The notes under the pieces are model-generated. The model ran no database searches. It had not been told where the DNA came from and saw only the letters and a list, made by a program, of their open reading frames with translations. Below, one piece after another: positions 1-53,323 of a stretch of 64,000 nt of DNA (positions within the stretch are counted from its first letter, which is position 1; each line of letters starts with the position of its first letter). This stretch comes from Inonotus obliquus (taxonomy: Eukaryota > Basidiomycota > Agaricomycetes > Hymenochaetales > Hymenochaetaceae): contig JAJHTX010000011.1 in NCBI GenBank assembly GCA_032164295.1, forward strand, positions 558,001 through 622,000. The letters are read 5' to 3'. Made by a program: the position numbers and the translations under genes.

Positions 1-1371
1 ATAGCAGGACAGGACAGAAAATTACCCTGCAGTTTCTTTGTGGAACCGATTAGAGATTTTAGTTCATCTCCGTCAAAACCCGAGGTGGAAGTCAGAGAAG
101 TAATCACGTCTAAAGAAGACCGTTGTCAAAGATGATGCCTAATAATGCCAGGGAGCATACCGATGTGCTGCTGTATGAGTGCACCCTGAAGCTCCTCCAA
201 CAGTCCCTCCTGCAGCGGGCGGTGATTTGGGAAGTAATCGATATGCTGCCAATATTCGAATTCAAACATGTACCCTGTGTTAAATTATAGGTTGGATAAT
301 CCATGTCGGAATATCGTCCAATCAACTTACGAAGCTGATCTCTGTGATCGACGCCAAATCCATCAGGCAGAACCCTATCGCCGACGAAACAGTCATCCAG
401 CCAGAACAAACGCTTTCCGTCCAAATCGACCATGTAATACCGCCAGCACTTCTCGTGCATTTCGAAAACTACCTCCACATTGACAGGCAATTTCTTAAAT
501 TTTTCGACCTTGTGTTCGAGGGCAGATATGAATCGTTCAGCTTCCCTAAGCAACGAAGTATCGGTCAGATCCTCCTCGGTGAGGTACTGGAATCTCCGAG
601 AGTCATTGCGGAAGTACGGTTGCCCCTCTGGTTGAACGAAGTGTGTCCAGTTGGGAACGTCAAGCCCACTATGTTTCACATTAGCCCTTGTATCGCTCGT
701 ATAGGCAAAGGAAGCTCACTCGTAAACAGTGATAGTTTCAAGCGGCTCGAATACCATTGGTCCAATGTCGTTTCGGCTACAAGGAAGCTAGATAAGATTC
801 GACAACAGTTGAACTACAAACGAACGTACATGATTATGTTGCGGTCATATCTCGAAGTCATAGACGGTAGAAAGCTTTGAAAACGCTTGCAAGGAGGTGA
901 AACAAACGACGCTGGTTCTGCAGTCATCACCTCTGGAGACGATAGCATCCCGCGCGTCAGGTTCTGCTCTTCTTGGTTTAAGTATGATGTGGGAGACGTG
1001 GAAGGAGGCGAATCGCGAAGCGTGGAAGTCGGTGACGTGCAAGTAGGGCCCATTTGGTACGACTCGAATGATGTATGCCTTGTATAGGAGCGAATCGGAG
1101 GCGGCCTTCTCGGTGTGGAAGAGCACGCCAGGACAACTGGACCCTTAGTTGCACTACATTGGAGATCACCTTGGTCATCCATACTTGATGACGGTTCGAT
1201 AGATCCCATTCCCTTACCCCGTTTTCCATCTCCTCCCGTTAAGCGCTCAGCTCTCTGTTGAGGAGAAAGGACTGAGAGGACGCGAAGGAGCCAGTGCAAA
1301 GATTGGCAAGCACATCTGCGACAGAGATCAAGCAGAGCCCGTAGCAAAGTCGCTAGTAGACGGAGGTTCAT
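1..1371 (-). CDS. WW-domain-like Agaricomycete membrane protein, N-terminal part (runs off left edge)
   Basis: The gene is read on the minus strand from an ATG at 1371 and is cut by the window edge, so only the N-terminal half is present. Exon 1 holds a hydrophobic/basic start, a Ser/Pro-rich stretch and the segment SRYDRN near its end. Introns then fall at about 785-834 and 664-700, giving a segment that ends in GLDVPNWTHFVQPEGQPYF. This is the WW-like core (W, then PEG.xYF), followed by a spacer with YYMVDLDGKRLFWLDD. Further introns near 271-320 and 105-160 join YWQHIDYFPNH and DVITSLTSTSGFDGDEL. The order of blocks and at least one intron (after DQLR) match the gene at 17443-19358, so the two are paralogs. 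In that paralog the missing C-terminal half carries membrane helices. Function is unknown. The first exon is the least certain part. Confidence 0.72.
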
Positions 1372-7652: not shown

Positions 7653-8701
7653 CTAGAAAATGACGCATCCGCCACTTGACCCTCGACCACCATGTCTGGC
7701 TGTTGTCCTCTTGTGAACTCTTCCCCTCGGGATAAATGGCCTCGTTTTTTCACTGAGAAAAGGGTATGTCCAATTTTCAAGTCAGCTGTGCAATCAGATT
7801 TTGAGCTCAACGAGATCCGTAAGAGTGCACGTACGCGATATATCCTAAGGTGCTGCTTCTTCGAACTGCCTTGGTACGTTTTCCTTCTGTATCTTCTTCC
7901 CTGCTATGAGGGCGATGAAATAGGTATGTAAGCGTGTTGCAGTGCTGAAGCTAAGAAAGCAGTTAACGTATTGTTAGTACGTACTTGGATTTGGGAAGAG
8001 CCGCGTCTTCGTCTTCTTGAATGCGGATGTGTTCTGAGCCGACTGAATCGCCATTAATAACGCCATTTTTCAGTTCAGTTGCAGTCGCCAGCGGAGTTTC
8101 GCCTTGAGTTGTAGAGTCGGTATTATTGGTTTCCGTTGTAGGGGATTGGACTTCTTGCTCGGAGGTTATGACTCCTTGGGGTAGAACGAGTCCTCCATTG
8201 ACTTCACTGGCGGTAGGTTGTGGTGGAACCTGAACTATGGTGGTATCAGGATTGGGAGCTTTTCCTGGGATGGCACCGTTTTGCTCTTTAGTGGCATCGC
8301 CGTTTGTTTCTTTACTTGGGACTTGGTGGGCTTGTTCAGAGGAGACAGTTTCATCGCTGGTATCTTTGGTAAGTTCCGTCAGAGTTGGTACCCCTGCACC
8401 TTCATCTGTTTTGTTGGGTGCCTTCACGACCTCACTTTTACGAGACAGAGCATCGTCGATCCTTGACAATTCAATTTCGGAGTTTAGAAAAATAGACGAA
8501 TAGAGAAAAGTCGCAAGCTTACCCATCCTCCGATTCATGCTCTTTGTTCTCATTGGTTGTGGTTGGTGACGAAGTAGATGGAGGAGACGCGCTGGGAAGT
8601 CTGCCGTCCTTCTCAGGTTCGTTTAGCGCATTTTCTACCATGGGAACAGGTGATGCCTCCCGTGGTATCTCAGCAGCGACGGCAGCGACGGAGTTGGACA
8701 T
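7653..8701 (-). CDS. Array member A: acidic spacer protein with PRG motif and C-terminal CVIF CaaX box
   Basis: Four exons (8701-8523, 8461-7985, 7903-7835 and 7752-7653) give 274 residues. All three introns are phase 2. Exon 1 starts MSNSVAAVAAEIPREASPVP. Exon 2 is low-complexity, rich in Thr, Ser, Glu and Asn, with no membrane segment. Exon 3 is basic (EEDTEGKRTKAVRRSS). The last exon gives TRPFIPRGRVHKRTTARHGG and ends GGCVIF-stop. The final Cys-Val-Ile-Phe fits a CaaX prenylation box, and the basic stretch before it would favour membrane attachment; both points are inference. The PF.PRG block aligns with the same position in the array genes downstream. I do not recognise the family. Splice joints follow consensus and preserve frame, but cDNA would be needed to confirm exon 3. 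Confidence 0.62.
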
Positions 8702-9826
8702 TCTGCGTTCGAACAGGGTGGGGATAGCGTTTGTGGGTGGGAACCGGTGATGAAGCGGACTTGATGGGCAGCTTATAAGCGAAGTTTAGCTGCTTTGTCA
8801 GTGTCAGTGCCTCAGTGATCACACTATTTGATACTTTCCTCAACGGTATTGCAGGAGGCTGTAGGGTGGTAGGAATGTAGGAGTGTAGAAGGCTGCCAGT
8901 CTGAGGCTGAGGAGTTGGCTGTGTTGATGAGCGGTTATGCTGTGAGTGTTTTCGGATTGTATTATTTCCTTCTTTCTTTTAGAAGACTGATTTTAGTGTT
9001 TCAGTATCATCAGATGGTCAAGGTTGGTCGATCATGCCATCTTGGACCCATATGGAGATCAGCGACAATGATTACTTTATAGGAGATAAAGGAAGGACCA
9101 TTGATCTGATCTCGCCGGAGCACTTTGCGACACGGGATTTATCCCACTTGACGAAGTTATCTGTGGTCTTGAGCTTAGATCACAGGTAAGCTGGACGTCT
9201 TGGCCGACTATCTTTCGCTTGTATGCGTTATTCAGGCTCTTTCTCTAGGAATCGGTACTCTTTGACCTCCGGGAGCATACAGATACAGTCAATCTAGGTT
9301 TGCTTTAACTTTTACAGAAGCGATCAACGGGACGAAAGCATATAAAGTTCGCTCTTTGCGAGATGCCGACGTCGTGATACGATTTCCGATGAATAGGTGA
9401 CAAGACGGTCAAGATGTGTGGTAGAACAAGGCTTGATCTTTGTGCTTGGTTACCGGTGATACACCAAGACCTTTGTATTGCCTCGAGTTTAGCACGTTTT
9501 AGCTGGTCATCGTTGCAACGACTGACTTGATTTGACGGTAGCGAGTTGATAGGTCAGAGGGACGCAAAGAAATCCAATAATGAAATTGGCTCGGTGATCT
9601 AGGTGAGTTCAGAATCTTGGGGAGGCACTGGAGGACTGGAATCAAGAATGATTGCTTGATTCACATTGTGATGGTATCCGTACACGGACTCTGCTACTCC
9701 TTCATCTTGATAATTTTTTCAGGTTCAATGTTTCATCACTTTCGCGTCTATCGTCCGTCTTTGTGCATCATCACTATCTCAATTATTTCCCATTCCCTTG
9801 TTTCCCGTTTACTGCATTCATTTCAC
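8702..9826. other. Intergenic region between array members A and B
   Basis: About 1.1 kb between the start of member A and the end of member B. Open frames here are short and show no family features. I see no repeat, RNA gene or further copy of the PRG motif. Confidence 0.45.
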
Positions 9827-10453
9827 CTATTGTTTGTTTGTTGTCCTCGGTTGCGTGGTTATCGTCGTTGTTGGGGTGGTCGCCGTACCATTCGTGGTGT
9901 TCGTCTTTGGTGGCTTGGTATTGATCTGCGTAAACGCAACAGTCTTCGTCGTTCGCGCATACTCAACAGGCGGCGTCTCTAGTATTTGTCCCCTAAGTAA
10001 AAATTCTTGTTGTTCACTAACATAGAAGTGGGTTCAGTCGACCTTCGTGTTATTTATTTCAAATGACGGGCTCACTCAGCTGTATCATCCTCAAGTGGCG
10101 CCTTAGTTTCGCCATCTTGAACGACCTCATCCCTGCAATAACGAACAACCACGACGATGACGACGACGACGATTTTAGCATCCATCGAAACTAATACGAA
10201 CGACATGCGCACCGTGCAGAATCGAAAACTGTGCTTTCAGAGTCATCCAAAACCGTTTCATTGTAACCCGTCAGATCGGGGTCGACGACAACATCAGTAT
10301 TCTCAATGGCTCTTTGCTCGAAGTCATCGATAGACTGAGGTACAGCGCTAATGTTGGACACACGACCTTCAGCATTTCTCCTATCCTATGACCTCGTGGA
10401 AATTGGCTTCCAGCTTACCTAACATCATCTTCAGTAGGAACAGGATAAGACAT
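9827..10453 (-). CDS. Array member B: small acidic protein with diverged PRG-type last exon
   Basis: Four exons, all joined in phase 2, give about 150 residues. Exon 1 is only 35 nt (MSYPVPTEDDV). Exon 2 contains SIDDFEQRAIENTDVVVDP, whose EQRxI core recurs in other array members. Exon 3 is short and acidic (DEVVQDGETKAPLEDDTA). The last exon begins EQQEFLLRGQILETPP, where the PRG motif has become LRG. It ends in a Thr/Lys/Pro-rich tail, NKQ-stop, without a CaaX box. Intron 2 contains a GTC/GAC trinucleotide run near 10155-10172. Gene order, strand and exon phases tie it to its neighbours. Function unknown. Confidence 0.58.
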
Positions 10454-11216
10454 GATGATGAAGTCAGAAGTCGGGGTAAAGTAGGGGAAAGAGGAGCTGT
10501 GTGGAGTATGAAGGTAAGGGATGATAGATATCAAGAGTATCAAGAGCTAATTTCAACAAAGAGCGTTCGCTTCTGACCGGACGTTACTTTGACGCACTCG
10601 ACACTTTATTATAGACGGAACGCCAACCCTTGACCTCTGGATTTCCCAGGGAATCAAGATTCTCAAGGACAGTTTTAGGTATAGGTATAGAAGACAAAGA
10701 CGGATTGATGCTGGCAGCCTGACACGTTTGGAAGTGTTGTATATGTTTAACCGTGCTCCGGTGAATAAAGTTGGAACAGACGCTCGATGGAAGTTGATGT
10801 TGTGATATCGGGGGTGACTTGGATGTTGCGGAGATTGAGATCATGAAACACAGAAGTCGGATTCGGAATTCTGTTTGAGAATCTTTCTCTTTTCTCAGAT
10901 GCGTGTCGAGTATAACCAGGACCAGGACCAGGACCAGGACCAGGACCAAAACCGGACCTATAAGCAATGGCATGTCGACTCGAATTTATGTAACGTAAAG
11001 AGTAAAGATATATCAGGAAGTTAACGAACGCGGTTGGCAGTAGTGCGGGGACCTTGGTAAATTAGTACCTTAATCTCAACGTCTGTGGAATCCAATTCGA
11101 ATAACATGGAAGCGCAGAGGGGTTGACCCTGGGCCGATACGAATGGTCCTCACATATCCATATAGAGTCACATATACATGCAAGATAAGACTAGGACTTG
11201 GACATCAACTACTAAC
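10454..11216. other. Intergenic region between array members B and C
   Basis: Holds a hexanucleotide tandem repeat (listed separately). The only longer open frame, on the minus strand at 10584-10973, is driven by that repeat and shows no family features. Confidence 0.45.
10915..10948. repeat. Hexanucleotide microsatellite (ACCAGG)n
   Basis: The unit ACCAGG is repeated between five and six times without interruption. It lies between array members B and C. Confidence 0.9.
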
Positions 11217-11742
11217 TCACTTTGAAGTAGTGCTAGTAGCATTCTTCGTTCCACCTTTCGTTCCACCTTTCGTTCCTTTCTCGCCTTTGTCCCTCTTTAC
11301 ATTAGTCGGCAACGTAACTGGTCCTCTAGGTATGAACTCCATGTCAAGAGGATAATCATCATCACTACTGTCGCGGCATACAGTAATAATAAGCAGGTGA
11401 TTCGTTATTCGTAATTAAAGAAACAGGAGCTTACGCATCTGCATCCTGTACCTCATCAAATCTTTCTACTTCATCCAATTCATCCGATGCTCTTTGAGCG
11501 GATACATCTGTAGTCGCCTTGGAATCGTCGCCCGAGGCGACACTTATTGCAACAGCTGCGTCGGGTATCTCGATAGATCTTTGTTCGACATTGATATGAT
11601 CCGAGTTGATTTGTTCATGAGAGGTTATACTATTCGTAGTTATCGAGTAAAGATAAGCCTTTTCGTTTGAGACGTCTCACAGAGAGAGATATCCAACTTA
11701 CCTAGCGCTGGAATCATAATCAGCAGGAAAGGAGCTAGCCAT
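11217..11742 (-). CDS. Array member C: small acidic protein with FIPRG motif and Lys/Gly/Thr repeat tail
   Basis: Three exons joined by two phase-2 introns give about 130 residues. Exon 1 is MASSFPADYDSSA. Exon 2 contains HINVEQRSIEIPDAAVA, sharing EQRxI with member B, and is rich in Asp, Glu, Ser and Ala. The last exon begins SDDDYPLDMEFIPRGPVTLP and continues TNVKR, the clearest form of the shared motif. It then runs into a basic tail with the repeated unit GTKG, ending TTSK-stop. There is no CaaX box in the stop-terminated frame. A GTGAGT overlapping the stop could act as an extra donor, but I found no downstream exon that would add a CaaX box. Function unknown. Confidence 0.62.
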
Positions 11743-12509
11743 TCCGAGTTGGCAGGGAGTACGATGGAGTGTAACAAGGCGCAGACAAAGTCCCAGCGGA
11801 AGACTGAATATTGGCGGGCTTTACAAGTATACCACGAACCTCAGGCCGCAGATAGCATTTTATAGTCAAAAGAAGGTATCCCTTCCGCTTCCTTTCTCAG
11901 GAAACAAGCTCGCACAGTAACGTTTGACGCGTAGAAGACGAATTGAATTGGTAGTGCATAGTGCGGCATAGTGCGGGAGTGTGTAATAGTGCAATACTGC
12001 GGCGACCGGAGAAGCAACTTTCGAATATTTATATAGACGCCCTGCTGGGATTTGATATGGGTATCGAAGGTGATCTAGTAGCCAAATCGAGTAAATCCCG
12101 AATTATCCGTGGAGCTCGGAATACTACTTCATGCGTAGAAGAGTGATGTGCGATCACATTTGACGAAGAATAGTCACCGTTCGATCGTAGAATCTTTTGT
12201 CATATTCCGCAGTAGATGCATTTTTGATGCGCAAAGCTCCGAGAGACGCTCGAGTGTGTTTGGGAGAAGTCGGAGAAGCTGATAAGAATTCAGCGGCCAT
12301 TGGTATTGTCAGGTCCTCAATATTTGTCGGTCGATCCGGGGTTCAGAGTCCTAGATCCTGGATGAGTAGCATTCAAAGGCGAAGAAAGTCAGTAACCGTA
12401 CGGGTAGTGGACAAAAGAGAGAACACAAGCGGCGCGCCACACGGTATTCCAGAGCTCATCATCGCGTCATCACGATCCTTCATCGTCTAGCATTGATTAC
12501 TATTTCTTT
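11743..12509. other. Intergenic region between array members C and D
   Basis: No supportable gene. Two open frames on the plus strand (11961-12146 and 12197-12490) show no motif or splice structure. Confidence 0.4.
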
Positions 12510-13119
12510 GGCTTGGGTTGAGTGCCTTCTGGTGGCTGATATGGACAAGGGTCCTTAGCCACCATTGGCTTGGTGGGCTTCCCCTAGGGATAATATCGGA
12601 CGCTTCCCGTCTGAGTTGGTCTCTGGATCTCTGGATATGAAATCAGGCCTAGTTCGAAGAGTTGCTGGGGATCTCGTATGATTGCAATGAGAAAGAAAGC
12701 TACTCATCCGTGGTAGGCTCGCCTTGTTCCCCGTTTAATCTCAAATAAATATAAAGTCCAATAAAATAAACAGAATTTTATATGGTCAGCCCCCGTCCGC
12801 CTGAGAATATCTACCTGAGGAGAATACTAGATCCGATATTAATCTTTTTGATCTAGAATGAGGAAAGAGGATAGAAACAAACGTCTTGGGAGTTAAACTT
12901 GGAGTGTTATTTCCAGAGTCTTCAGAGGATGCGGCATTCTGAACGACACCACCAGACGTTAGGACACCACCGTCTGCGATGTCTTGTTGGACCTCTGCTG
13001 TTCCATCCAGAGGCGCCACTAGAAAGACTAGAGTCAGTTACAGAGAGTCTTGATATCGGATGTTGACTTGCCTTGCATTCTGCGTAAGAGGAATGGGGAC
13101 CATCGGTTGAATTCGTCAT
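12510..13119 (-). pseudogene. Array member D: frameshifted copy of the PRG-motif family
   Basis: Family traits are present but out of frame. A short first exon ends in a GC donor (AAG|GCAAGT), as in member E. Exon 2 contains AEVQQDIADGGVL and EDSGNNTP, aligning with EAQRDIV and SRDNTP of member E, but neither start ATG (13119 or 13103) reaches this frame through the visible splice sites. Near 12575-12590 the motif reads IIPRG in one frame and GKPTKPMVAKD in the next, so the G run is one base short of the expected PRGKPTKP. The last frame ends KPKK-stop at 12510. The middle exon also hits an early stop. Two independent frame breaks suggest decay. A sequencing error could explain one of them but not easily both. 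Confidence 0.55.
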
Positions 13120-13823
13120 GTGAACCTTTGAAAATTCAAATGCTATGCTCACCATTTAGACCATTTACACAAGTCAGTACATCTGTCAGCCTAGTCCTAT
13201 GCAAAACTAGCCATGTGTTGATGCCTGTCTTGTTGTCTTTAAGAAGGATCAGATTCAAGCCTATTTGCCGAACCGCATCTCGATGCACAGTGCAACATGA
13301 AGAATAAGAGACGTCCCAATCTAGAGAAGCAATAGAACTGATTGACGGTTTGTATACAGCTTAGGAGGCCATTGATGGCTTGTATTAGGTTTGAATGTAA
13401 GCTTAGATACGGTTTTTGGTGGGATGAGTAGTCAAGAAAGTGATGTGGTGTGGTGGTGTGGTGCGTAGTCTTCATACCAGTTATGGGAATTCTCATATTA
13501 GGGAGTCTTCATTTCTCACGCTTTGTGCTTCCTTCAACCTTTCGCCTTACAGAAATTTGCGTGGATCTAACCTTGCTTGTAAATTTAATTTGGCGATGCC
13601 TATTGGATTGGAATCACTATGCACTGCTTTTCTGCGTGAATGATATGTCCATCAAGTGTTAAGTGTGCAGTGCCCTCAATATATTGTGCGTGTTACATAG
13701 GTGAGACGATCAGTAGACCGTGATTATAAATTGACATAAACTCAGCAGAAAGCGATTAAAGACAAGTATCTGCTAAACTGCTACTTCTGTCTGCGAGATC
13801 CAACGTCTCGACTTCCCGACGAT
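13120..13823. other. Intergenic region between array members D and E
   Basis: About 0.7 kb with no gene I can support. The short frames near 13440-13660 lack motifs, and I see no repeat. Confidence 0.4.
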
Positions 13824-14315
13824 TCACCTCCCGCCAGTCTTAGGAGGCTTCTGAACGACCGTAGGCTTGGTTAATTTCCCTCTGGGTAGCATGAACGTAG
13901 AAATGATATCATTATGACTGCTACGATATGTTAGCAAGAGTTCTTCAAGTTGGGTGATAAAGAGCTTGAGGAAAGGAACCTACTCCGAGTCATTAACGAA
14001 ATCCTCGTCTTCATCGATAGGCCCACTTCTTATAGCTGGACTGGATTGCTTGGACCTGAATGTAAATTCACGGATGAGCGGTCGCAATAATACAACAGGG
14101 AAAGAGTGGGACGTACTCGCAGGGAGTGTTGTCCCTAGAGTTGTCCGGTGAGGTATCACCAATTATATCAGCAGATGTTGCGACGATGTCGCGCTGGGCC
14201 TCTGGCACCTCAGAAGTGTTGCTGATGAAGAAGAAAGATAGGGTCAGATACATAACGGTTCGCGTATCAGATTATTAACTTGCCTGGCATTGACGGTAGG
14301 TAGGATATCAGTCAT
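13824..14315 (-). CDS. Array member E: small acidic protein with LPRGKLTKPTVV motif
   Basis: Four exons, all joined in phase 2, give about 105 residues. Exon 1 (MTDILPTVNA) ends at a GC donor (CAG|GCAAGT). Exon 2 reads NTSEVPEAQRDIVATSADI and SRDNTPC. Exon 3 is acidic (IRSGPIDEDEDFVNDS). The last exon contains ISTFMLPRGKLTKPTVVQK and ends KTGGR-stop. The PRGKLTKPTVV string is identical to the one in the gene at 32830-33290, which is strong evidence that both are real and related. No signal peptide, membrane segment or CaaX box. Function unknown. Confidence 0.68.
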
Positions 14316-15370
14316 GATGATAAAGATGCTGAAGATGGTGTTGTAGCAGATGCTGTAGAAGATGTAGAATTAGATGTTGTTAGCTCTCCAGAATTTCGAC
14401 AAGGCCCGCTTTTATACACATCAGGCTGACAGCAGCGCCTATCCCAGACAGCATCCTCCATCCCTCATTTTCTAGCACTTACGACATTCCCGCCTTCTTG
14501 ATCCCACATGGGGAACTCGTGCAGACACTGTAGAGCTAATTCCACAATGCAGTGCCCCAACCCCGCGATTTTGCACAGGTCAAGGCTCATATGTAATTTC
14601 CGACAATGGAATCCTATGCTTATCGATCATGTACATGTCGTTTCTTCTTCTTCATCTAAAGAAGAAAGAGGAAATAGCCTTCTAGTTCCAACAGTTGAAT
14701 CGCATCCTGGTGCATCATCAAGAATCAAACACCTGAATCAGAGGCGTCCAAGTTCCAAGTAGAAAAGGAGGCAGGAACGTTTTTCTGTTTAACAGTATCC
14801 AGTGTAAGAAGCCGTTGTTGTCCGGTATTGAGTTTGAGATTGACATTGAATGCGACTTTGATATGGTTTGTATAGGATCAGCAGATTGCTAGGAGATGCG
14901 GAGATGTTCGACGAGAAGATAAAGCACAGCTTTCGAGTCACCTCGACTTTTTCGGATATTACCGAATTTGTCCTTCCTTCTTCTATGTAAATGGGTCAAA
15001 CATCCTCCATGATAAGATGATATCTTTCGAATACATTCGGCACTGGATCAAACAAGAATGACGAAAGACGCTCGTGTACAGTACCTTCCTATGAATATGC
15101 AATAATAATTAGATCAGACATAGCCTTCAATACATACTGTAATTGGAGCCATGTGGGATTAGTGGACGAGCTATTCCGAGATTTCAACAATATTCGGGGA
15201 ACCAAATGGATAAGGTATGGAAAGAAAGACGCAAATTGGTTGGTGTGAAGGGTCGTAATGAACGTGAAAGCGAATAACTTGATCAGGAATACGCCTGGGC
15301 ATCGCCACGAAAAAAGTATCCACAGGAGTCATAATGGCAGAGTGATTGCTCACTATGCAACAGGGTGGCG
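14316..15370. other. Intergenic region between array members E and F
   Basis: About 1 kb. The 14508-14762 plus-strand frame has no recognisable feature. I see no further family copy. Confidence 0.4.
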
Positions 15371-16144
15371 TTACATGATGATACAGCCAGGTTTTTTCTT
15401 CTCTTTCTGCCCTGGCCCCGGTTTGTTCTTCGAGTCCTTTTTCTTTTTTCCGTTCTTGCCTTTTGATTCTCTCTCACTTTGATTCTTGGGTTCGCGCTTT
15501 ACGTCCGTCGGTCTCGTAAGGGGACCCCTTGGAGTAAACAGAGGCGCCGCAGAACTGAGGGGATACAGTTAAAATATTACACGATGTCAGGAGCTTTTTA
15601 AAGAGGAAGTTTTGAAGAAAATTCTTACACAACGGCCGCCTCATCCGAAGCTGAAACACCATCTAGAGCTCTATTAGCATCCCTGGGAACACCGAACGTC
15701 AATAACGGAGGGTCATGTAATACAAGAGACGAGATGAGGCGTAAGGCGTACAGATGCGATTTCGGAACACCGGGCCCAGACGCAATATGATCCTCAGTTC
15801 CAGTGTTATTTGACACAGACTCGGACTCGGAGCTTGAAGTAATAATGACTCCAAGGGCCGTGCTTTCGGAGTTGCTTGTCGCCTTACCAAGGCGACCGAG
15901 GTCATCATCAACTATGACAGCCACGACAGGGCCAACGGCCGACTCGGGACCTTGGTCTTGGTTGACGACCAGACTTGGTAAATCATCGGTTCTGAACGGT
16001 GAGATCAATAAGGATCAATATCAGTCTTCGACGTGTGAACTAGATAAGGAATTAGCCTGTGCGTGCTTACCTCAGATCACTGGAGGTCAAAGAAGAATCC
16101 GCCGAGGAAGGATTAGAGCTGAGCCCAATTTCGGGAGTAGACAT
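15371..16144 (-). CDS. Array member F: PRG-motif protein with polybasic tail and C-terminal CIIM CaaX box
   Basis: Three exons joined by two phase-2 introns give about 210 residues. Exon 1 is MSTPEIGLSSNPSSADSSLT plus SSDL. Exon 2 is long and acidic/Ser-rich (IITSSSESESVSNNTGTEDH) and includes a short hydrophobic part, LYALRLISSLVLHDPPLLTF. The last exon reads SAAPLFTPRGPLTRPTDVKR, then a strongly basic run (GKNGKKKKDSKNK, KEKKKPG), and ends CIIM-stop. Cys-Ile-Ile-Met is a good CaaX box for farnesyltransferase. A lysine-rich segment just before it resembles the polybasic-plus-lipid membrane anchor of K-Ras. That comparison is inference, and the rest of the protein is not a GTPase. Function unknown. 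Confidence 0.64.
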
Positions 16145-17442: not shown

Positions 17443-19358
17443 ATGGACATCTCACTCAAATGTATCCTGGAATCCTTCTCAGCTGATTTTGGTGGTCTAC
17501 GCCCAATCACGCCCGCTCAGTCAAATCGGTATTCTAAGCCAGTCGGGTTGGTCTCTCTATTTTTTTAATATTTTCGCCTTGCGGCTGACGTGACATCAAC
17601 TCCAGCGTCCCTCTCGCTGGCAAGAAAATCCCTGTAGGATGCTTTTCTGGACAACGCGAGCCTGAGTGAATATTATTGATACAGTTCTTCGACTTTGCCT
17701 TACTAACGCCGCGTGATTGTAGGCCATTATACCTGGCGCACGGATGGTCGAGCCACGTTCAGGCCGAAGGGCAAGCGTACTTCTATCACAAAGAAGCACG
17801 CTTCGTCACTGAAGCTAACATCTACAATGCGGAAGTAATGATGCGCGTTGCACATTGGATGCTTGTCGTACGCAAGTTTGCAGAGGCGCAGAACGTCATA
17901 ATCTCAGACACTATGGAGATTATGCTTCAGCTCGACGAGGACGATAATTCTTGTGGATATTATTTGGCAGACCACGAGTCCAGGACGGTCTTCTGGTTAC
18001 AGGAGGTGGACTCTGAAGAACTTGGAATTCCAGATTCAGTTTCAATGGCTCAACTCCGTAAGTGAAATTCCCTTTCGCAAGACAAAAGCTTCGGCTGACG
18101 TTAAGTCATATTAGGTTGGAATTCTAATGAATTGTACTGGACTCATGTCGAATATTTCTCCGCGCATCTTGATGGACTCCGAATGTCCTGTGCACGGGAA
18201 CTTTACAGCATCTTGACTCATGCCAGAGCGGGTAAGCCACCATTAATGGATAAGTCCGCAGTAATGTTTACTCATCCGTAATTCACCAGATCACTTGACA
18301 TCCCTAGTTGGAACGTTCCCTTACGGCGCAGAGCAGTGCAAGGAATTCCAAGACTTGCTCCGGGGTCATGTTTCCGATTCTTCAGAGATTCTCTCGGATA
18401 AATACATAATCTGCGTTGTTGCCCGCCTTTGGGGACAAGTTGGTAAGCGCTCCATTTTTCGCTTCTAGCACTGCCTTTACTAAAATATTCATCTTCCAGC
18501 TCGACACAGGTTCCTTAACTTTTACGGAGAGGAATGTTCTCGTCTCTCTCGGGACCAGCGTGTAGTCAACTATGCCCCGAGGAACCTTCCCTCCCTATTC
18601 AGGCTCTTTTCGAAAATCGCCCTTTTTGATATCCCGCGAAGTTACTTTACTGAGTTAGATGGACTCTGGGTGGATAATATCGTCTATGGGGAGCCGTGGA
18701 AGAACTTCGTAAATTCATGTCTTCAAGACTGGAAGGAAACGGCAGTTTGGACATTCGGGCTGACTTCGTGAGTGGCACCGAAACGCCTTCTTGCCCCTAG
18801 ACTAATAAGCTTTTTAAGGATGCATGCTTTGATTTATCTCACGAGTCTGGGTTCCTCGACAATCAGTATCACAGCATTGGCGCTGTCGATATTTGGTTTC
18901 ATCTGTGGCTTGACTCTGACGAGCTATCATCGGATCCCAACGAATTATGAGACTCAGGATGCGGTAAGTCCAATATAGATCCCTTCATCTGAATATCTGA
19001 TTTCTGAGCGCTTGTTATCTAGGCCGAGTTCCTTGGTCGTACATATCACCCCGAATTTGGGTTCGCTCCTCTTTCGTGGTTGTACAGTATTCCGAAAGCT
19101 CTCCTTTTCTGGTCCACTGGTCTCGCGATCTTACAAGGTGCATTTGCGACATATGACTCGCTCCCGATTTCCAATCGTTACGTGGCAGCAAGCATTGCTT
19201 TCTTGACGGTCGCCGTGTTGTGCAGCGTTGCCTACGTTCTACAGTTACAGAATATCTTAACATCCTGGATGGCATTTTTTCGAAGTAGTGGTACTGTCCA
19301 TCGCGACGAAGATCTGGAGAGGAATGGGAACGAATGCACCGTTGACGAGAAGTTCTAA
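17443..19358 (+). CDS. WW-domain-like Agaricomycete membrane protein
   Basis: About seven exons. Exon 1 (from 17443) is MDISLKCILESFSADFGG and onward. Exon 2 (about 17723-18059) carries the WW-like core HGWSSHVQAEGQAYFYHKE and then GYYLADHESRTVFWLQEVD. Next come ELYWTHVEYFSAHLDGL and DHLTSLVGTFPYGAEQCKEF. A conserved middle block follows (RHRFLNFYGEECSRLSRDQ, then FRLFSKIALFDIPRSYFTEL). The C-terminal third is hydrophobic, with likely helices in 18830-18920 and 19085-19260, and the protein ends in a short charged tail. It is a paralog of the gene at 1-1371, sharing block order and the intron after AQLR/DQLR. The family is common in mushroom genomes; its role is not known to me. The domain may be a degenerate WW. 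Confidence 0.8.
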
Positions 19359-32829: not shown

Positions 32830-33290
32830 ATGGCCGACAAAGATCCTGAACAAAGAGTTCCCGCTGACGAGTAAGTACACAAACCGAAACAATAATAATA
32901 GTTAATTATTGAGTTTGGGATGATTATGGTGACTGACTTCGATACATTTATTTGAACTTTGATAGCGAACCGCAAAGACCTCCTGTTGATGACAGAGACG
33001 AGCCAGCAAAGCAGGGGGATTCCGAAGTCGCGTGAGTTGATAGAGAAAGGTTCCGACGAAGGCTACATGTATTCATTGAAATGCTACTCGTAACCTCCGC
33101 CTAGCCAAGACCCCTTTGATGAAGGCGAAGATGCAGCTGATGAGCCCGAAGACGAAAGGCGAGCAGCTAAACCTTTTCCTTATATAGTTATGGACTATGG
33201 AAGCTAATGTGCTTCGATAGTAACAAAAGCCCCGTTCCTTCGTTCCTCCCTCGAGGCAAGTTGACCAAGCCAACCGTTGTCAAGAAGTGA
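32830..33290 (+). CDS. Dispersed PRG-motif family member (minimal form)
   Basis: Four exons joined by three phase-2 introns code for only about 75 residues, the smallest version of the family. Exon 1 is MADKDPEQRVPAD. Exon 2 is EPQRPPVDDRDEPAKQGDSE. Exon 3 is QDPFDEGEDAADEPEDE. The last exon is NKSPVPSFLPRGKLTKPTVV, then KK and the stop. The last intron appears to use a GC donor (GAAAG|GCGAGC) with an AG acceptor at 33219. Residues 1-55 are nearly all polar and acidic, and the C-terminal 15 residues are basic. PRGKLTKPTVV matches array member E exactly, 18 kb away on the other strand. It overlaps no other gene. Function unknown. Confidence 0.68.
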
Positions 33291-36396: not shown

Positions 36397-37124
36397 CTGT
36401 GGCAGCTGTATTTCGACCTCGGGGATATCACTGGGGCGTCCGTAGGCTATACCAGGACTGGGTACGTGAGCCTGCCAACCACGGTGTTGTTTCCCTGGAA
36501 GCCTTTCAACAAGCGAAGCTGCCCGACACTGCGAGAGTCCTGTACGAGTCTAGTAAGCCCCTAAGGCGTGGAATGTAAAGATACAAATGGCGTGAGATGA
36601 TGTTGACTCCTAAGTTGTGGCATCACTAACCGGCAGTGGCATTCATCGTGCCCGTTGCCAGAAAGGTGCGCCACGTGACATGAGATTGCCCATACTGAAA
36701 CTATCAGTATCACGAACAATTGTCGCTCGCAAGAATCCATACCATATGCTTGCAACCCGCAACCCGAGCCGCCATGATGGCGGGCTTTTCGAACGCGGCC
36801 ACATACTCGATCAAAGTCGCACCTCTTCCATAATAGCACCTTGACTTTGACTCCCTCACTACATTCATTACCGAGACCATCTGACCGCAAAGAACGCGCC
36901 GGTTCTCAACCTCTCACTATTCCAGGATCGAATTTCTCGCACATAGCGGGTGATCTATTGTCGAAACTCGGGACTATATATAGTAGGACTACTTACGGAG
37001 ACTAGTCTCACAGGGTACGTTTCGCAATCATCGCCTACCCCTTCCTTTGAGGCCTAACTACTACTGTAGTCGCAGACTGAGCCCGCAGCTGATCTCGAGG
37101 CTAATCGGCCCACACCTACGAGTA
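36397..37124. other. Divergent intergenic region
   Basis: Lies between divergent starts of the phosphodiesterase and epoxide-hydrolase-like genes. The minus frame 36561-36890 has no support. Confidence 0.45.
36975..36982 (+). promoter_or_regulatory. Probable TATA box of the epoxide-hydrolase-like gene
   Basis: A TATATATA tract lies about 145 bp upstream of the start codon at 37125, in the divergent intergenic region. The position is plausible for a TATA element but the transcription start is not visible. Confidence 0.4.
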
Positions 37125-38486
37125 ATGACGGATAGAGAGCCGCTTGTGGACGGAACGCACTTCCATATGTCTTTGAGACCTCTTCCTGAGGGACTCACGG
37201 ATAGGTACATCCCAGTGAACGACCTTATCGTCCACTTCCTCGATGCGCATCCTAACCAATCCTCTCTGAGTGGAACTAAACCTCCCCTCATCGCTTTAAT
37301 CCATGGCTTCCCCGAGCTCGGGTACTCCTGGCGCAAGGTAATGCGTCCTCTCTCCCAGCTTGGCTTTCGCGTCGTCGCACCAGATTTGAGGGGTTTCGGG
37401 CGGACTGTGCCTAATCCCAATGCTAGGGATAGCTCTAGTGCTTCGGCAAATACGACATATCCGTACAAATATGAAGACCCAATTGCACAATTCAGCTTCA
37501 CAAATCTCGCTCGCGACATCGTTGCGTTTGTCTATGCGCTAGGTTACGAGCGCGTTGCCTGCATCGTGGGTCACGATTCGGGATCGATCACTGCGGCCTC
37601 CTGTGCGCTAGTTCGTCCTGATTTATTCCGCAGTGTCGTTTTGATCAGCGCGCCGCTTCATGGTACACCCGACACACCTTTTGACGTACCAACATACGCC
37701 TTTGCAGATGAAGCTGCAGCAGTCCGGTCACCCAGACCGGTACATCCCGGTCTCGCATTGGATGCGATGCTTGCGCGCCTTGATCCACCGATGATGTACT
37801 ATCAGCATTACTACTCGTTGCCTTATGCGAACATTCAAATGCACAAAGAGCTCTCACTGGATGAGCTGCACGATTTTTTTCGTGCGTACTTCCACATCAA
37901 ATCGGCATGTTGGCCCGATTCGTCCTCCACACCTCAAGACGTACAGAAGTTCACTGTGCCTCGCACGCTGTCGGGTGCGGAAGATATGGCGTGCCTTCCG
38001 CCGTACTATATGATGCCTCGAGGACAAGGTATGCCCGCCGTCGTAGGTGCGCACCTTCCACGTGGTCAGGACTTGGAACGTAGCCGCGGTTGGCTAAGCG
38101 ACGAAGATGTACATGAGTATGCAACTGAATACTTCCACACCGGATTCCAAGGTGGCTTGAACCGCTACCGCATTGCTACACGCCTCGGATGTGCTACCCT
38201 TACATCTATCTCGGCGTCGGAAGAGAATCATATGTCGGAGCTCGCGCTCTTCTCGCGGAAGAAAATCGAGGTGCCAGCTTTGTTTGTGGCAGGAGAAATG
38301 GATTGGGGACCGTACCAGTATCCAGGCGCTTTTGACAAGATGAGGAGGCTGTGTCCGTTAATGAAGGAAGGAAGCGAGGGGATCGTCTTCATAAAAGATG
38401 CGGGACACTGGGTGCAACAAGAGAAGCCTGCAGATCTGCTTGCGGTCCTCGAGAGCTTCCTGAAGAGCCTCGACATCCAGCTTTGA
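37125..38486 (+). CDS. Epoxide-hydrolase-like alpha/beta hydrolase, intronless
   Basis: A single exon of 453 codons. The oxyanion motif is HGFPELGYSWRKVM (near residue 70). The nucleophile motif is VGHDSGS, where Asp sits in the place used by epoxide hydrolases. The strand-6 acid is probably the Asp in AGEMDWGPYQYPG. The catalytic His is in IKDAGHWVQQEKP near the end. Between these lies a cap domain that looks longer than usual, with a Pro-rich stretch. These residues fit hydrolysis of an epoxide or halide; the substrate is unknown. An in-frame ATG at 37047 would add 26 residues; I prefer 37125 (MTDREPLVDG) because the extension is poor in structure. Lack of introns is unusual in this window. 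Confidence 0.85.
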   Translation: MTDREPLVDGTHFHMSLRPLPEGLTDRYIPVNDLIVHFLDAHPNQSSLSGTKPPLIALIHGFPELGYSWRKVMRPLSQLGFRVVAPDLRGFGRTVPNPNARDSSSASANTTYPYKYEDPIAQFSFTNLARDIVAFVYALGYERVACIVGHDSGSITAASCALVRPDLFRSVVLISAPLHGTPDTPFDVPTYAFADEAAAVRSPRPVHPGLALDAMLARLDPPMMYYQHYYSLPYANIQMHKELSLDELHDFFRAYFHIKSACWPDSSSTPQDVQKFTVPRTLSGAEDMACLPPYYMMPRGQGMPAVVGAHLPRGQDLERSRGWLSDEDVHEYATEYFHTGFQGGLNRYRIATRLGCATLTSISASEENHMSELALFSRKKIEVPALFVAGEMDWGPYQYPGAFDKMRRLCPLMKEGSEGIVFIKDAGHWVQQEKPADLLAVLESFLKSLDIQL

Positions 38487-40312: not shown

Positions 40313-41640
40313 ATGGATTCTGTGGACTGTGCCAGTTTACCCAATCCAAACACCACTCTCGCATTTCTGTCTCCGGATATGGCAGATCAACTTGAGGTCT
40401 CGCGCTATATTTACGTAGCAAGTCTTGGGGTGCGTTTGTGCGCCATCTTGAAGAGTCCACCAGTTGATCTAGTTCTATGACAGGCTTTCGCCTGGGATCT
40501 GTTCACCAACGTACCAGCGGATTACAAGCTTCTGTTCGAGTACAGGATCGCTCCTGCGACTGTCGTCTATTTTGTTTCACGGTAAGCAAACGTGCATTAC
40601 GAATACACGTAACCTTTTTCTCACTTAGTGCTAGTATCATGTCGCTCGCATTTATTATCTCGAGTACCGTTTTCCAGAGTAAGCACGAGATACTTTCTCT
40701 CGTACAGTATTTGAGCTGATGGCCATCAAGTCGGGAACGTAGGAGACTGTCAAGCTCTTCAGATCGCTTTGGCGATCTGTTTTACGATTGCAGTTCCAGC
40801 GACTTCTCTCCTGTTTCTTTTCCGTATCCGGGCTGTTTTTCACAACCAACAGCCAGTCGTCTGGCTCTTTGCCTTCCTCTGGTTGGCCGTACTTGCGGGA
40901 TGCATTACTGTACCTTTCGCCCTTAATGGTGCTCACATCGGACCAACTCGGAATTGCATAAATGTCGACGTTAAGCCGTTCAGCTCTGTGGGGATAGTTA
41001 TATCCGCAGTCAACGATACATTCGTCCTGGTTGCTATCTCCCTGCGACTCATGTATAATTCGTCCGGACATGGTGGGAGAGGTGTTCAAATGAGCAATTT
41101 CTGGAGTGGGGGAGCTTTACCTCAGATCTCGAAGTCTGTTCTTCAAAGCGGGCAGCAATACTATCTGTATGTCGGTTCAAATGTCACCTCATTCACGACT
41201 CGGAATACGTTTGAACCTAATCCAACAGTATTACCGTCGGATGGAATGTCCTTGCGATGGTGATGATTCTTGCTCCATCCGTTCCGCCGGTATACCGCGC
41301 CATGTTCACTATCCCAAGCATGGCAGTAGAGAACTGCATGGCCTGCAAAGTATATCGAGACGTTCGATTCGGGGTCATCCGAGCTGTCGGAAACTCAGCG
41401 GGCCAGCATACGTCGAGCAGCGAAAGATCTAGGGTTAACTATCTTCCACGATCAAGATCACGCGGGATAGTGAAACCAAATGCGTCAACGAACGAAGGGG
41501 TAATTGTGTCTACACGGGTGTCAACCACGATAGATCCTCCTATGGAACTTCAGGTCAATTTCGGTGGCTCAACCCGAGGGCGCACTTCTTCATCGTATGA
41601 TCGCAACGCAGAATCCAAATTTGGAGATCTTGGCGTCTGA
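40313..41640 (+). CDS. Multi-pass membrane protein (DUF6533-like Agaricomycete family)
   Basis: Exons from 40313 join MDSVDCASLPNPNTTLAFLS, then VSRYIYVASLGAFAWDLFTN, RIAPATVVYFVSR, SLAFIISSTVFQ and ALQIALAICFTIAVPATSLL. These continue to WLFAFLWLAVLAGCITVPFA and VDVKPFSSVGIVISAVNDTF. At least six hydrophobic segments are visible, so it is probably a seven-helix integral membrane protein. The last exon gives MVMILAPSVPPVYRAMFTIP and a Ser/Arg-rich cytosolic tail ending KFGDLGV-stop at 41640. The family is expanded in mushrooms and its role is not known. It lacks the features of a Ste3 receptor as far as I can see. A decayed copy lies 2 kb downstream. Confidence 0.72.
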
Positions 41641-43080: not shown

Positions 43081-44480
43081 TCCAACAGTTGTTCACAGCA
43101 ATAGATCAACCAGACAAGTACAGGTGTTTTAGCCACAATTCTTCTCACCCCGCCCTTCTCGCATCTCACTCATGTCCAAAGCAAGTTCGTCAGATTTACT
43201 CAATCCAAACGAACACTATTCTCGCTTTTCTTCCTCCCAGCCCAAGCCCAAGATCGCGAAAGAGCTCGAAATCTCACGCTAAATCGACGTAGCCTGCCAG
43301 CCTGCCTCGAGGTACATACACGTTGACTTACAACCGCATCCAAATCTCCAATCTCCAAGGAAAAGCCATTGCTTGGAATCTATTTTCAACAGTACCTGCC
43401 GTGGAATACGTATAAGCTTATTTTCGACTTCGGACTTCGGAATTCGGACTTCGAAACGCAAGGTAAGTAGCTTGGGCAATTGTCATCAATCATCAATTTT
43501 TCTTTCCGCTTGCATTTGCGGTTACGAACACCGCCCACCGCCCACCATCTTGCGAGGTAGTCGACTTGGCATTCCATTCTTACTCCGATCTCAGATTTAA
43601 ATCACTAAATCACAGTCGCCTTCAAGCCTCAAGCCGGGAATGTATGGAGCTGCAAAAGCACTCTCAATAATCGCGCTAGGGATCTGCTTTACCGCCATCA
43701 CAACACCGTCGACTTCTCTCCTATACCTCTCCGACCTCCGACTCGGATTTCGTGCCATCTTGCGTAATCAAAGGAAGGATAACGATCTAGCTCTTCTCCT
43801 TCCTCTGGTTATCCGTTCTCACAGGTTGCTTAGGTTGCTTCTCTCTACCTCTCTCCCTCTCCAGCCTGAATATTCACATCGGACCGACAAGAACGTACAA
43901 AACTCCATAAACATCCGCGTCAAACCATCCAGCTCTGCAGGGATCGTCATATCCGCAATATTAATCCGCAATGAACAATACTTTGATCTCGATCGCCAGT
44001 TCCCAGCGTTCCCAGCGTTCACTCCGGCTTCTATACAACGCTGCAGCACTTACGACAAACCGCGTTCAGCTTCAAGATTTCTGAAAATGGGAAGATATTT
44101 ACAATTACCTGTGTTCTCTGTTCTCTGTAAGCTTTCCAAAGAGCGGGTAACAGTACAGTCATTATTTACACGTCCAATTTCCTTCATTAATCAAACTTTC
44201 TCAGACCGACCAAAACAAGTCCTTCATTGTTCATTTATTTATGGTATTCCTTTCGGATGAAATATCCTAGTAATGGCTATCATCCTCCGAATCACACCAT
44301 CCGTAACCTCAATATACAATGGCATGTTCACCAACCCCACTCGTCGCAATCAAGAACTGCACGACTTGTATATTTGGGTCCATCGAGTAATCATGTCGCC
44401 ACAGATGTCAGCGGAAACATTGCTTATTAGGATAATTATATCGGCTCATCTTTTGTTATTTATCGCCCACGCTAGAGACA
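43081..44480 (+). pseudogene. Decayed duplicate of the multi-pass membrane protein gene
   Basis: Fragments match the intact gene at 40313-41640 in the same order but in different frames. NPNEHYSRFSSSQPKP matches NPNTTLAFLS. ALSIIALGICFTAITTPSTS and LLYLSDLRLGFRAILRNQ match ALQIALAICFTIAVPATSLL and the following segment. INIRVKPSSSAGIVISA matches the INVDVKPFSSVGIVISA part. At 44273 MAIILRITPSVTSIYNGMFT matches MVMILAPSVPPVYRAMFT. The hydrophobic segment between them is replaced by Arg/Leu-rich out-of-frame sequence, and several stops intervene. The copy retains the whole length, so it arose by tandem duplication and then decayed. Confidence 0.72.
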
Positions 44481-45129
44481 CCTATTACATGATTCCCCAT
44501 TCGCCTGAGCAAACCAACTTCTCAACACTCAACTGCAAAACACAGAGACAGAGGCAAGAGAACGCATACGATTGTCATACACCTATATTTTATACATCTC
44601 TGTATTCCAACGACCTCGTCGGCCAAAAGTCAATGGCAGAAACTCAAACAGTGAAAAGAAGAGATAAGACACTGAGAGAAAGGAATGAGACAGAGACAGA
44701 TAGCAATGCAATCGATACACTGAGAATGAATATTGCACGACGACGACACCAGAACTACGATCGATAATTATCAAGTGAGGGGAAAACAAAGAAAGTAGCA
44801 GAAGAGACTATGAACAAGAAGTTGCAGCTATATCCAAGACGCGGAAGGAGAGGGAAAGCAAAGAGAGGGACCATAGAATAAACCTAAACTTCCTGAAGAC
44901 AAAAAAGGTGCTGGAAAAATCTAATAAAATAGCCTGAACAACTGAAGAAAAACGTATCAGGATTTCCTCAAAAAACGCTAGAGTGGAAGAAACACGAAGA
45001 AGTCGCTGATTATAGGTCGTGAAGAAGAGAATGAATGGGAGGGAAATTGGATAGATGACCAACGGAGTAAATAAGGTCGGGATGAAACAGCAGATAGAGC
45101 GAGCTGGAAAAGGTGAGGCGGTAGTGAGA
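44481..45129. other. 3' flank of the RNA-binding protein gene
   Basis: Purine-rich on the plus strand (so pyrimidine-rich in the transcript of the gene to the right), consistent with a long 3' untranslated region. The 180-codon minus frame 44808-45350 overlaps the gene's last exon in another frame and is a shadow. Confidence 0.45.
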
Positions 45130-50439: not shown

Positions 50440-51280
50440 ATGTTCTCGAATTCACTCGCAAAGCTATCTATCTTCGCTCTCGCACTCTCGCTCCCATACC
50501 GTGCTTTCGGGCACGCAATTATAGAGCCTGCACTCGGTGTCACTGGGGCAGCAGCGAGGTCCGACGTCACACGCTCGTCCAATAGTTCACCGTGTGGCAA
50601 TGGTGTTAATGTTGCGAATTCCCTCGCTGGTTCTACGTCCGTCCAGGCAAACGGGAACGCATTCACCGTAACAGTCACCAACTTCAACGCGTGAGATTCT
50701 CTACCATCCCTTCGCATTCTTCCAATACGAGACTAACAATGATGATTCAGTGGTAGAGATGGTTCAACCCAAATCGCCGACACCTCCATCGACCCAAGCG
50801 GAACAGGCAACTCATTCAACGGTGGTTCCGTAACGATCACCCAAAACGGTGATAGAGCACCCTCTTCAACAGGATCGGTCCAAGTATCTGGTACGCTACC
50901 TGCGGGAACGACGTGTACAGGCGGAAATGACGGTGCAAGCTGTCTTGTGAGCTTCTCAACAGCTGGAGGGTTCGGTAACTGCGTTCTCGTTTCTCAAGGC
51001 GGCGGGACAGGTGCGACTAATGCTGCTGCTGCTGGTGCGAACAACAATGGGGCGACGGGGAATGGGAATGGGAATGGTCGTAACCGTAACAACAACAACA
51101 ATAACGCGAGAGCCGCCGCCGCCGTATGTGCTTCCCTGTCAATTCATACCAGTGCATGATTCTGTTTTCTGACATTTGTATGATATATTTTAGGGATCCC
51201 GTCTTCCACGCTCGCTCAAACTGCGCAAAGATCTCGGAGAGGCTTTGGAGGAGAAGCGTTCTTGGGCTTGGGCAGCTTAA
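50440..51280 (+). CDS. Egh16-like secreted protein with Gly/Asn-rich tail
   Basis: Egh16/Gas1-type proteins are secreted and, in plant pathogens, linked to early host contact; in other fungi their role is unclear. A signal peptide (MFSNSLAKLSIFALALSLPY, then RAFG) precedes the mature start HAIIEPALGVTGAAARSDV. The conserved core is SSPCGNGVNVANSL, VTVTNFNAGRDGSTQIAD, SGTLPAGTTCTGGNDGAS and AGGFGNCVLVSQ, with six cysteines. An intron lies at about 50692-50750. The core is followed by a low-complexity tail of Gly, Asn and Arg, an intron at about 51126-51193, and a short basic exon (SRLPRSLKLRKDL) ending SWAWAA-stop. The tail is absent in the neighbouring paralog at 52731. Family call rests on the HAII.PALGVTG start and the Cys pattern. 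Confidence 0.82.
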
Positions 51281-52730: not shown

Positions 52731-53323
52731 ATGTTCGCAAAATCGTTCTCCTCAATCTCCGTCCTCGCAATTACCCTGTCACTCTCACTCCAAGCTTTGG
52801 GTCATGCCATTATCACTCCAGCACTCGGCGTCACTGGTATCCCCGTTCGAGCTGATGTGACTCGTGTCTCCGATACTTCACCTTGTGGTAGTGGTGTCGA
52901 TATAGCTTCTGTCATTCCCGGCTCCGAAGCCGCTCAAGCTGCTGGGAATGTGTTCAATGTTACTATCACCAATTTCAACGGGTAAGTACATATATCTCAA
53001 CATTACTACCTCATTTCACTCAAAAAAACTTGAAACTGAACATATGGAAACAAAAAATGTATATGAATAGTGGAGAAGACGGATCAACCGAAATCGTCAA
53101 AACCTTGATCGACACTACCGGAACTGGTGCTTCATTCGATGGTGGTTCCGCAACGATTACAGTGAACGGCGAGGAAGCGCCAGAAACAACTGGCTCTGTC
53201 CAACTCTCTGGTATATTGCCTGACGACACGGCATGTGCGGGTGGTAATGATGGTGCAAGCTGTCTTGTGGCGTTTGCTACTGCAGGTGGATTTGGTAATT
53301 GTGTTCTTATCTCCCAGGCGTAA
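52731..53323 (+). CDS. Egh16-like secreted protein, tandem paralog
   Basis: Two exons (52731-52982 and about 53072-53323) give about 165 residues. A signal peptide (MFAKSFSSISVLAITLSLSL) is followed by ALGHAIITPALGVTG, matching the gene at 50440. The core blocks TSPCGSGVDIASVI, VTITNFNGGEDGSTEIVK, GILPDDTACAGGNDGAS and AGGFGNCVLISQA line up one for one, and all cysteines are conserved. The single intron sits at the same point, after NFNG. It ends immediately after the core, without the Gly/Asn-rich extension of its neighbour, so this is the compact form. Same strand, 1.45 kb apart: a tandem duplication. Confidence 0.85.

Follow-up and report, generated by a model that had tools for sequence, protein, structure and literature searches.

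We analysed a window of 64,000 nt from the Inonotus obliquus genome (36.07 Mb, 30 contigs), covering positions 558001-622000 of contig JAJHTX010000011.1 (contig C11). The window holds a tandem array of small genes that appear to form a genuine family around one constrained peptide, here called the PRG motif. Five genes of the array (A, B, C, E and F) have open frames and a sixth copy, D, is frameshifted; all six follow one another head to tail along the minus strand. An open seventh copy, G, lies outside the array on the plus strand, approximately 17 kb beyond F. We propose that these genes encode a local, lineage-restricted family of intracellular, disordered-looking proteins that combine an acidic spacer, a PRG docking peptide and a basic tail, with a lipid anchor in A and F, and we place the probability of this reading at roughly 0.45.

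Gene models and the PRG motif

A preliminary description of the region, made from the sequence alone, had proposed six minus-strand loci of one family. That proposal largely stood: five of the loci are open, D is frameshifted as claimed, and all 17 introns across the six open models (the five plus G) are phase 2; the motif, however, gave no support to the inclusion of B. The motif strings listed in that description were recovered at or near the places given for them.

Each of the six models is open from ATG to stop. Gene A, at 7653-8701 on the minus strand, encodes 274 amino acids (aa) in four exons (8701-8523, 8461-7985, 7903-7835 and 7752-7653), with the motif FIPRGRVHKR and a C-terminus, SSGGCVIF, that forms a CaaX (C-aliphatic-aliphatic-x) box. 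Next to it on the same strand is gene B (9827-10453; 138 aa; exons 10453-10419, 10347-10213, 10132-10076 and 10016-9827), which carries the motif-like string FLLRGQILET and has no CaaX box. Gene C (11217-11742, minus strand) encodes 128 aa with the motif FIPRGPVTLPTNVKR and a Lys-rich tail, and is the one model with three exons (11742-11702, 11629-11435 and 11367-11217), the others having four. The exons of gene E (13824-14315, minus strand; 101 aa) lie at 14315-14284, 14221-14117, 14055-13984 and 13920-13824; its first intron is of the GC-AG type and its motif reads MLPRGKLTKPTVVQK. The array ends with gene F (15371-16144, minus strand; exons 16144-16071, 15991-15752, 15682-15629 and 15554-15371), encoding 183 aa with the motif FTPRGPLTRPTDVKR and a polybasic tail that closes on KKKPGCIIM, also a CaaX end. 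Outside the array, gene G (32830-33290, plus strand; exons 32830-32870, 32966-33031, 33105-33158 and 33221-33290) encodes 76 aa, with a GC-AG last intron and the motif FLPRGKLTKPTVVKK. First exons measure 32-41 nt in B, C, E and G, 74 nt in F and 179 nt in A. In all six genes the motif lies near the opening of the last exon, at an offset of 13-31 nt (A 16, B 13, C 31, E 28, F 16 and G 22 nt). Both features, phase 2 introns throughout and a motif early in the last exon, were found in six of six hand-built open models.

Copy D (approximately 12499-13103, minus strand, boundaries set by eye) is a frameshifted relative of E in which the motif is divided between two frames. At the DNA level the opening part of D, first intron included, can be aligned with E, in an alignment that left the motifs out of register; D therefore looks to be a damaged duplicate of this gene. 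GC donors were seen in the first intron of E (14222-14283, GCAAGT), the last intron of G (33159-33220, GCGAGC) and the first intron of D (from 13071 down, GCAAGT); the GC first-intron donor common to D and E fits a recent duplication.

Models A, B, C, E and G were built by hand from donors, acceptors and reading frame, and model F is one of three produced by an automatic enumerator, rechecked for open frame and intron phase. With a strict splice filter, the enumerator returned four models for C, three for F and seven for E, and none for A, B or D; its models for E differ from ours because it disallows GC donors. The hand-built models are our choice, and C and F have enumerator alternatives too. 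TATA-like strings occur in the 200 nt preceding the start codon of A, B, C, E and F, and G has CATAAAA there; the same inspection, which had no chance control, found no such string for D.

The motif was scored in bits by a leave-one-out scan of all 70,969 stop-free 15-mers of the window and of five shuffled windows. The copies in C (11292-11336, minus strand), E (13848-13892, minus), F (15494-15538, minus) and G (33243-33287, plus) follow the consensus (F/M)-x-P-R-G-x-(L/V)-T-x-P-T-x-V-(K/R/Q) and scored 31.4, 32.5, 29.8 and 41.5 bits, respectively, values matched or exceeded by no non-family 15-mer in the window and by none in the shuffled windows. The membership of C, E, F and G is secure by this measure, and the core family they make up is well supported at the sequence level. 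The motif of A (7692-7736, minus strand) reached 12.7 bits, a score attained by nothing else in the window and by three 15-mers in the five shuffles; weak alone, it makes A a probable member once its place in the array and its CaaX box are added. The PRG-like motif of B (9959-10003, minus strand) scored -0.8 bits, a value equalled or bettered by 100 window 15-mers and by 394 in the five shuffles, and is not significant alone. B would belong to the family by position, intron phase and the FLLRG at the expected spot, and not by motif score.

Synonymous (pS) and non-synonymous (pN) divergence was computed over the 15 motif codons, pair by pair. Comparing C, E, F and G with one another (six pairs) gave pS of 0.66-1.17 and pN of 0.09-0.39; with synonymous sites near saturation and pN low, the motif is constrained in these genes. 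Pairs with A gave 0.69-0.99 and 0.38-0.47, and pairs with B 0.51-0.93 and 0.42-0.51. The suggestion that the C-terminal motif is the constrained unit of the family was thereby sustained for C, E, F and G, with pN well below pS. The recurrence of E's motif string at 32830-33290 had also been noted, and was verified in G: the two genes are identical across LPRGKLTKPTVV (12 residues) even though 10 codons differ synonymously. A comparison of 14 codons gives 13 residues in common, the single non-synonymous difference being Q/K.

Charged flanks and CaaX ends

Net charge ahead of the motif lies between -13 and -22, and from the motif onward between +5 and +12, in all six proteins. The spacer is acidic in each copy and Ser/Thr-rich in all but G, a protein in which the basic residues after the motif amount to KK. 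Order-promoting residues make up a fraction of 0.13-0.22 and Trp is absent, disorder being judged here from composition only. The N-terminal parts had been called almost unalignable, and none of the 15 pairs showed similarity beyond composition (the best, C/E, stood at 62 of 2000 shuffles); this divergence appears to be drift or diversification. A candidate second motif in the N-terminal part, EQR-x-I, was rejected as not significant. Charged N-termini and the cytosolic nature of CaaX substrates make an intracellular location plausible for the family.

The CVIF end of A and the Lys-rich stretch plus CIIM at the end of F are CaaX prenylation signals behind basic stretches; the boxes are absent from the preliminary description. 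B, C, E and G end without CaaX, and a search of these four genes for alternative 3' exons yielding one found none. A stretch of 264 kb contains 8449 six-frame open segments of 20 aa or more, most of them non-genes; 23 of these end in C-aliphatic-aliphatic-x, A and F included. At that rate the probability of at least two such ends among six proteins is approximately 1e-4, by our own post hoc arithmetic. When the 23 were ranked by the basic charge of the stretch before the box, F came top (+9) and A second (+6), tied with one unrelated segment.

According to PMC8146680, a polybasic region with a CaaX box is a plasma-membrane signal in some fungal Ras proteins. The Lys-rich stretch and CIIM of F, and the basic stretch and CVIF of A, resemble the hypervariable tail of fungal Ras/Rho GTPases; unlike members of the Ras superfamily, the six proteins gave no Ras-type Pfam match at E<=1, and two of the six have such a tail. 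Plant RIN4/NOI-type proteins are disordered, carry short conserved motifs and are lipid-anchored at the C-terminus. The likeness to them, which we offer as analogy only, lies in disorder, a short docking motif and the C-terminal lipid anchor; the RIN4/NOI motif is unlike the PRG motif in sequence, no NOI match was found in Pfam at E<=1, and the two belong to different kingdoms.

Relatives, further copies and neighbouring genes

The preliminary description had recognized no known family of this design, and that view was upheld within searches of low sensitivity: no known domain (Pfam, NCBIfam) and no relative in the protein database was found. With all six proteins, Pfam at E<=1 gave only sub-threshold matches, two in B and two in C, and zero in A, E, F and G; NCBIfam at E<=0.1, queried with C, E, F and G, gave nothing beyond one match far below cut-off, in F. 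The last-exon alignment had no match among PDB sequences at E<=10. An alignment of all six proteins, with the best 7994 word-sharing candidates of the protein database scored, returned none at E<=10; this alignment misregisters the motif of A, and the candidate set was probably dominated by low-complexity words. Residues 58-101 of gene E found no protein-database candidate with three words in common.

The hydrolase frame at 36987-38486, a neighbour of the family, had its best relatives in Sanghuangporus vaninii (71% over 86% of the query) and Fomitiporia mediterranea (68% over 89%), both Hymenochaetales, which by itself would most likely place the host in or near that order; Hymenochaetales and other Agaricomycetes were among the 120 relatives listed of 3085. 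These matches show that Hymenochaetales proteomes are present in the protein database. The negative for the family itself is weak, short genes being possibly unannotated; the family may be confined to few species or may merely lack annotation in that database.

Within the genome, a profile of A, C, E, F and G recovered those five over 264 kb, with the next matches at 11.1 and 11.0 bits; the best matches of three shuffles, at 12.4-15.1 bits, lay above the 11.1-bit runner-up. Protein searches of the genome with G, the last exon of F, E, the end of A and C recovered the queries' own exons, and the sole cross-match between copies was from E to G (E=0.439); the E query also matched one unrelated place on contig C5 (E=0.198). 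No copy beyond the window was found in these searches, in which B and D were not queries and whose low sensitivity could let distant copies escape. Of the codon-degenerate patterns run over the genome, one found only E and G and another only F. Literature searches turned up no paper on a family of this kind; PRGKLTKP and PRGPLTRP were absent, and FIPRG appeared in two papers, both with unrelated titles.

The scanned neighbours are ordinary (a coatomer-type WD40 protein, PSMD3/Rpn3, an MFS transporter, the hydrolase and an RRM protein), and Pfam at E<=0.01 matched nothing in five of the ten neighbour stretches scanned. On either side of the array lie exons of two similar proteins, at 110-715 (minus strand) and 17670-18065 (plus strand), here labelled WW-like; they share W..(H/F)VQ.EGQ.YF and had no Pfam match at E<=0.01. 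The gene at approximately 17.4-19.4 kb seems, by eye, to finish in transmembrane segments. The idea that the PRG motif derives from these flanking genes was examined by eye only and yielded nothing convincing. Two further pairs were noticed by eye. Adjacent open stretches at 40715-41640 and 43601-44767 have similar membrane-protein-like sequence (ICFT) and are probably a tandem pair, the part scanned (40715-41263) having no Pfam match at E<=0.01. Small-protein copies at 50746-51159 and 52892-53323 have DGST, TGTG, SF.GGS.TIT.NG and GGNDGASCLV.F.TAGGFGNCVL in common, and also have the look of a tandem pair.

Proposed function, alternatives and significance

The kind of protein proposed here is already known: disordered proteins that carry a docking motif and, in some members, are lipid-anchored. 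On this reading, A and B carry diverged versions of the motif. We infer that A and F are prenylated and lie at a membrane, that the PRG peptide docks to a partner, and that paralogues lacking the anchor serve as alternatives or competitors. A and F would be farnesylated or geranylgeranylated and held at the membrane by lipid and basic residues in the manner of a Ras-type tail; there the PRG peptide would bind a conserved partner. Copies with a basic tail but no lipid might be soluble or weakly membrane-bound, and would share or compete for the same partner, while the spacer would set length and charge and be free to drift. A bolder version, which we think unlikely, holds that this is a prenyl/polybasic-anchored, lineage-specific family in which the PRG peptide of approximately 15 residues is the only fixed element and docks a membrane-side partner, that A and F versus C, E and G form a tunable antagonist set, and that the divergent spacers suggest a role in recognition or signalling.

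Several points weigh against the docking-family interpretation. The splice models are hand-built predictions; the motif is weak in A and not significant in B, and pairs with B show little sign of constraint. CaaX is missing in four of six proteins, so anchoring is not family-wide, and the boxes were spotted post hoc against comparison segments that are mostly non-genes. No relative in another species was found, in searches of low sensitivity, and the partner is hypothetical. The motif block was selected for protein likeness, which itself depresses pN; protein likeness at near-saturated synonymous divergence is nevertheless a sign of constraint in its own right.

The main rival, somewhat unlikely in our judgement, is that these are nuclear or nucleic-acid-associated proteins, the basic tail being a nuclear localization signal or a nucleic-acid-binding segment, the acidic spacer regulatory or activation-like, and the CaaX boxes incidental. 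Basic tails in all six proteins (+5 to +12), acidic spacers and the lack of CaaX in four of six would suit such a role, but two CaaX ends in six are improbable given a local frequency of 23 in 8449, G carries just KK after its motif, and no DNA-binding match emerged from Pfam (six proteins) or NCBIfam (four).

We find it harder to believe that the genes form two unrelated sets, C, D, E, F and G being one family and A and B chance neighbours alike in composition and intron phase. The motif scores of A (12.7 bits, three matches in five shuffled windows) and B (-0.8 bits, equalled or beaten by 100 of 70,969 window 15-mers) and the unalignable N-terminal parts speak for this. However, A and B sit head to tail inside the array, each has three of three introns in phase 2 and, like F, a motif offset of 13-16 nt in the last exon, and CaaX is common to A and F.

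Markedly less probable again is the suggestion that these are divergent lipopeptide pheromone precursors or pheromone-like genes, with CaaX members processed to secreted farnesylated peptides. The CaaX boxes of A and F, the acidic, pro-like N-terminal region and the Gly-rich end of A recall mushroom pheromone precursors, and GGRGSSGGC in A recalls a non-mating-type motif, the C. cinerea consensus being GGGSGNGAYC according to PMC8305134. The end of A (7653-7736; Gly-rich, CVIF) is nearer to that non-mating-type pheromone-like consensus than is the tail of F. In PMC8305134, four Agaricus pheromone precursors are 44-54 aa long, with predicted mature peptides of 11-13 aa; the proteins here are 76, 101, 128, 138, 183 and 274 aa long, with two to three coding introns. 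CaaX is confined to A and F and lacking in the other four of six, the tails are basic (Lys-rich in F), and the conserved unit is the PRG motif rather than the last dozen residues. All 12 STE3 matches, moreover, lie on contig C9, whereas the window is on C11; linkage to STE3 is not known to be obligatory for every pheromone-like gene, and its absence is not decisive by itself. The STE3-type matches are at 1057354-1060542 (probably two genes), 1840469-1841565 and 1969405-1970486 on C9. In an in-genome control, no convincing pheromone gene was seen by eye among single-exon frames of 28-130 aa at C9:1054001-1066000, nor a convincing pheromone frame within approximately 1.5 kb of the other STE3 places on that contig.

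Least credible of all is that the copies are neutral remnants, duplicates of a single gene in the course of decay whose motif is a chance leftover, as the frameshift in D, the motif of B that is unrecognizable by score and the N-terminal parts without detectable similarity might suggest, since six frames are open, the motif in C, E, F and G combines near-saturated synonymous with low non-synonymous change, and E and G keep 12 identical residues through 10 synonymous changes; for C, E, F and G this reading is already contradicted.

Returning to the docking-peptide family, single-motif families in disordered proteins are easily overlooked by domain libraries, and their short, intron-rich genes are easily overlooked by gene finders. 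Here, a single genome supplies several paralogues, a broken copy, a motif whose constraint can be measured and two members with a lipid-anchor signal, features that make the docking-peptide idea testable.

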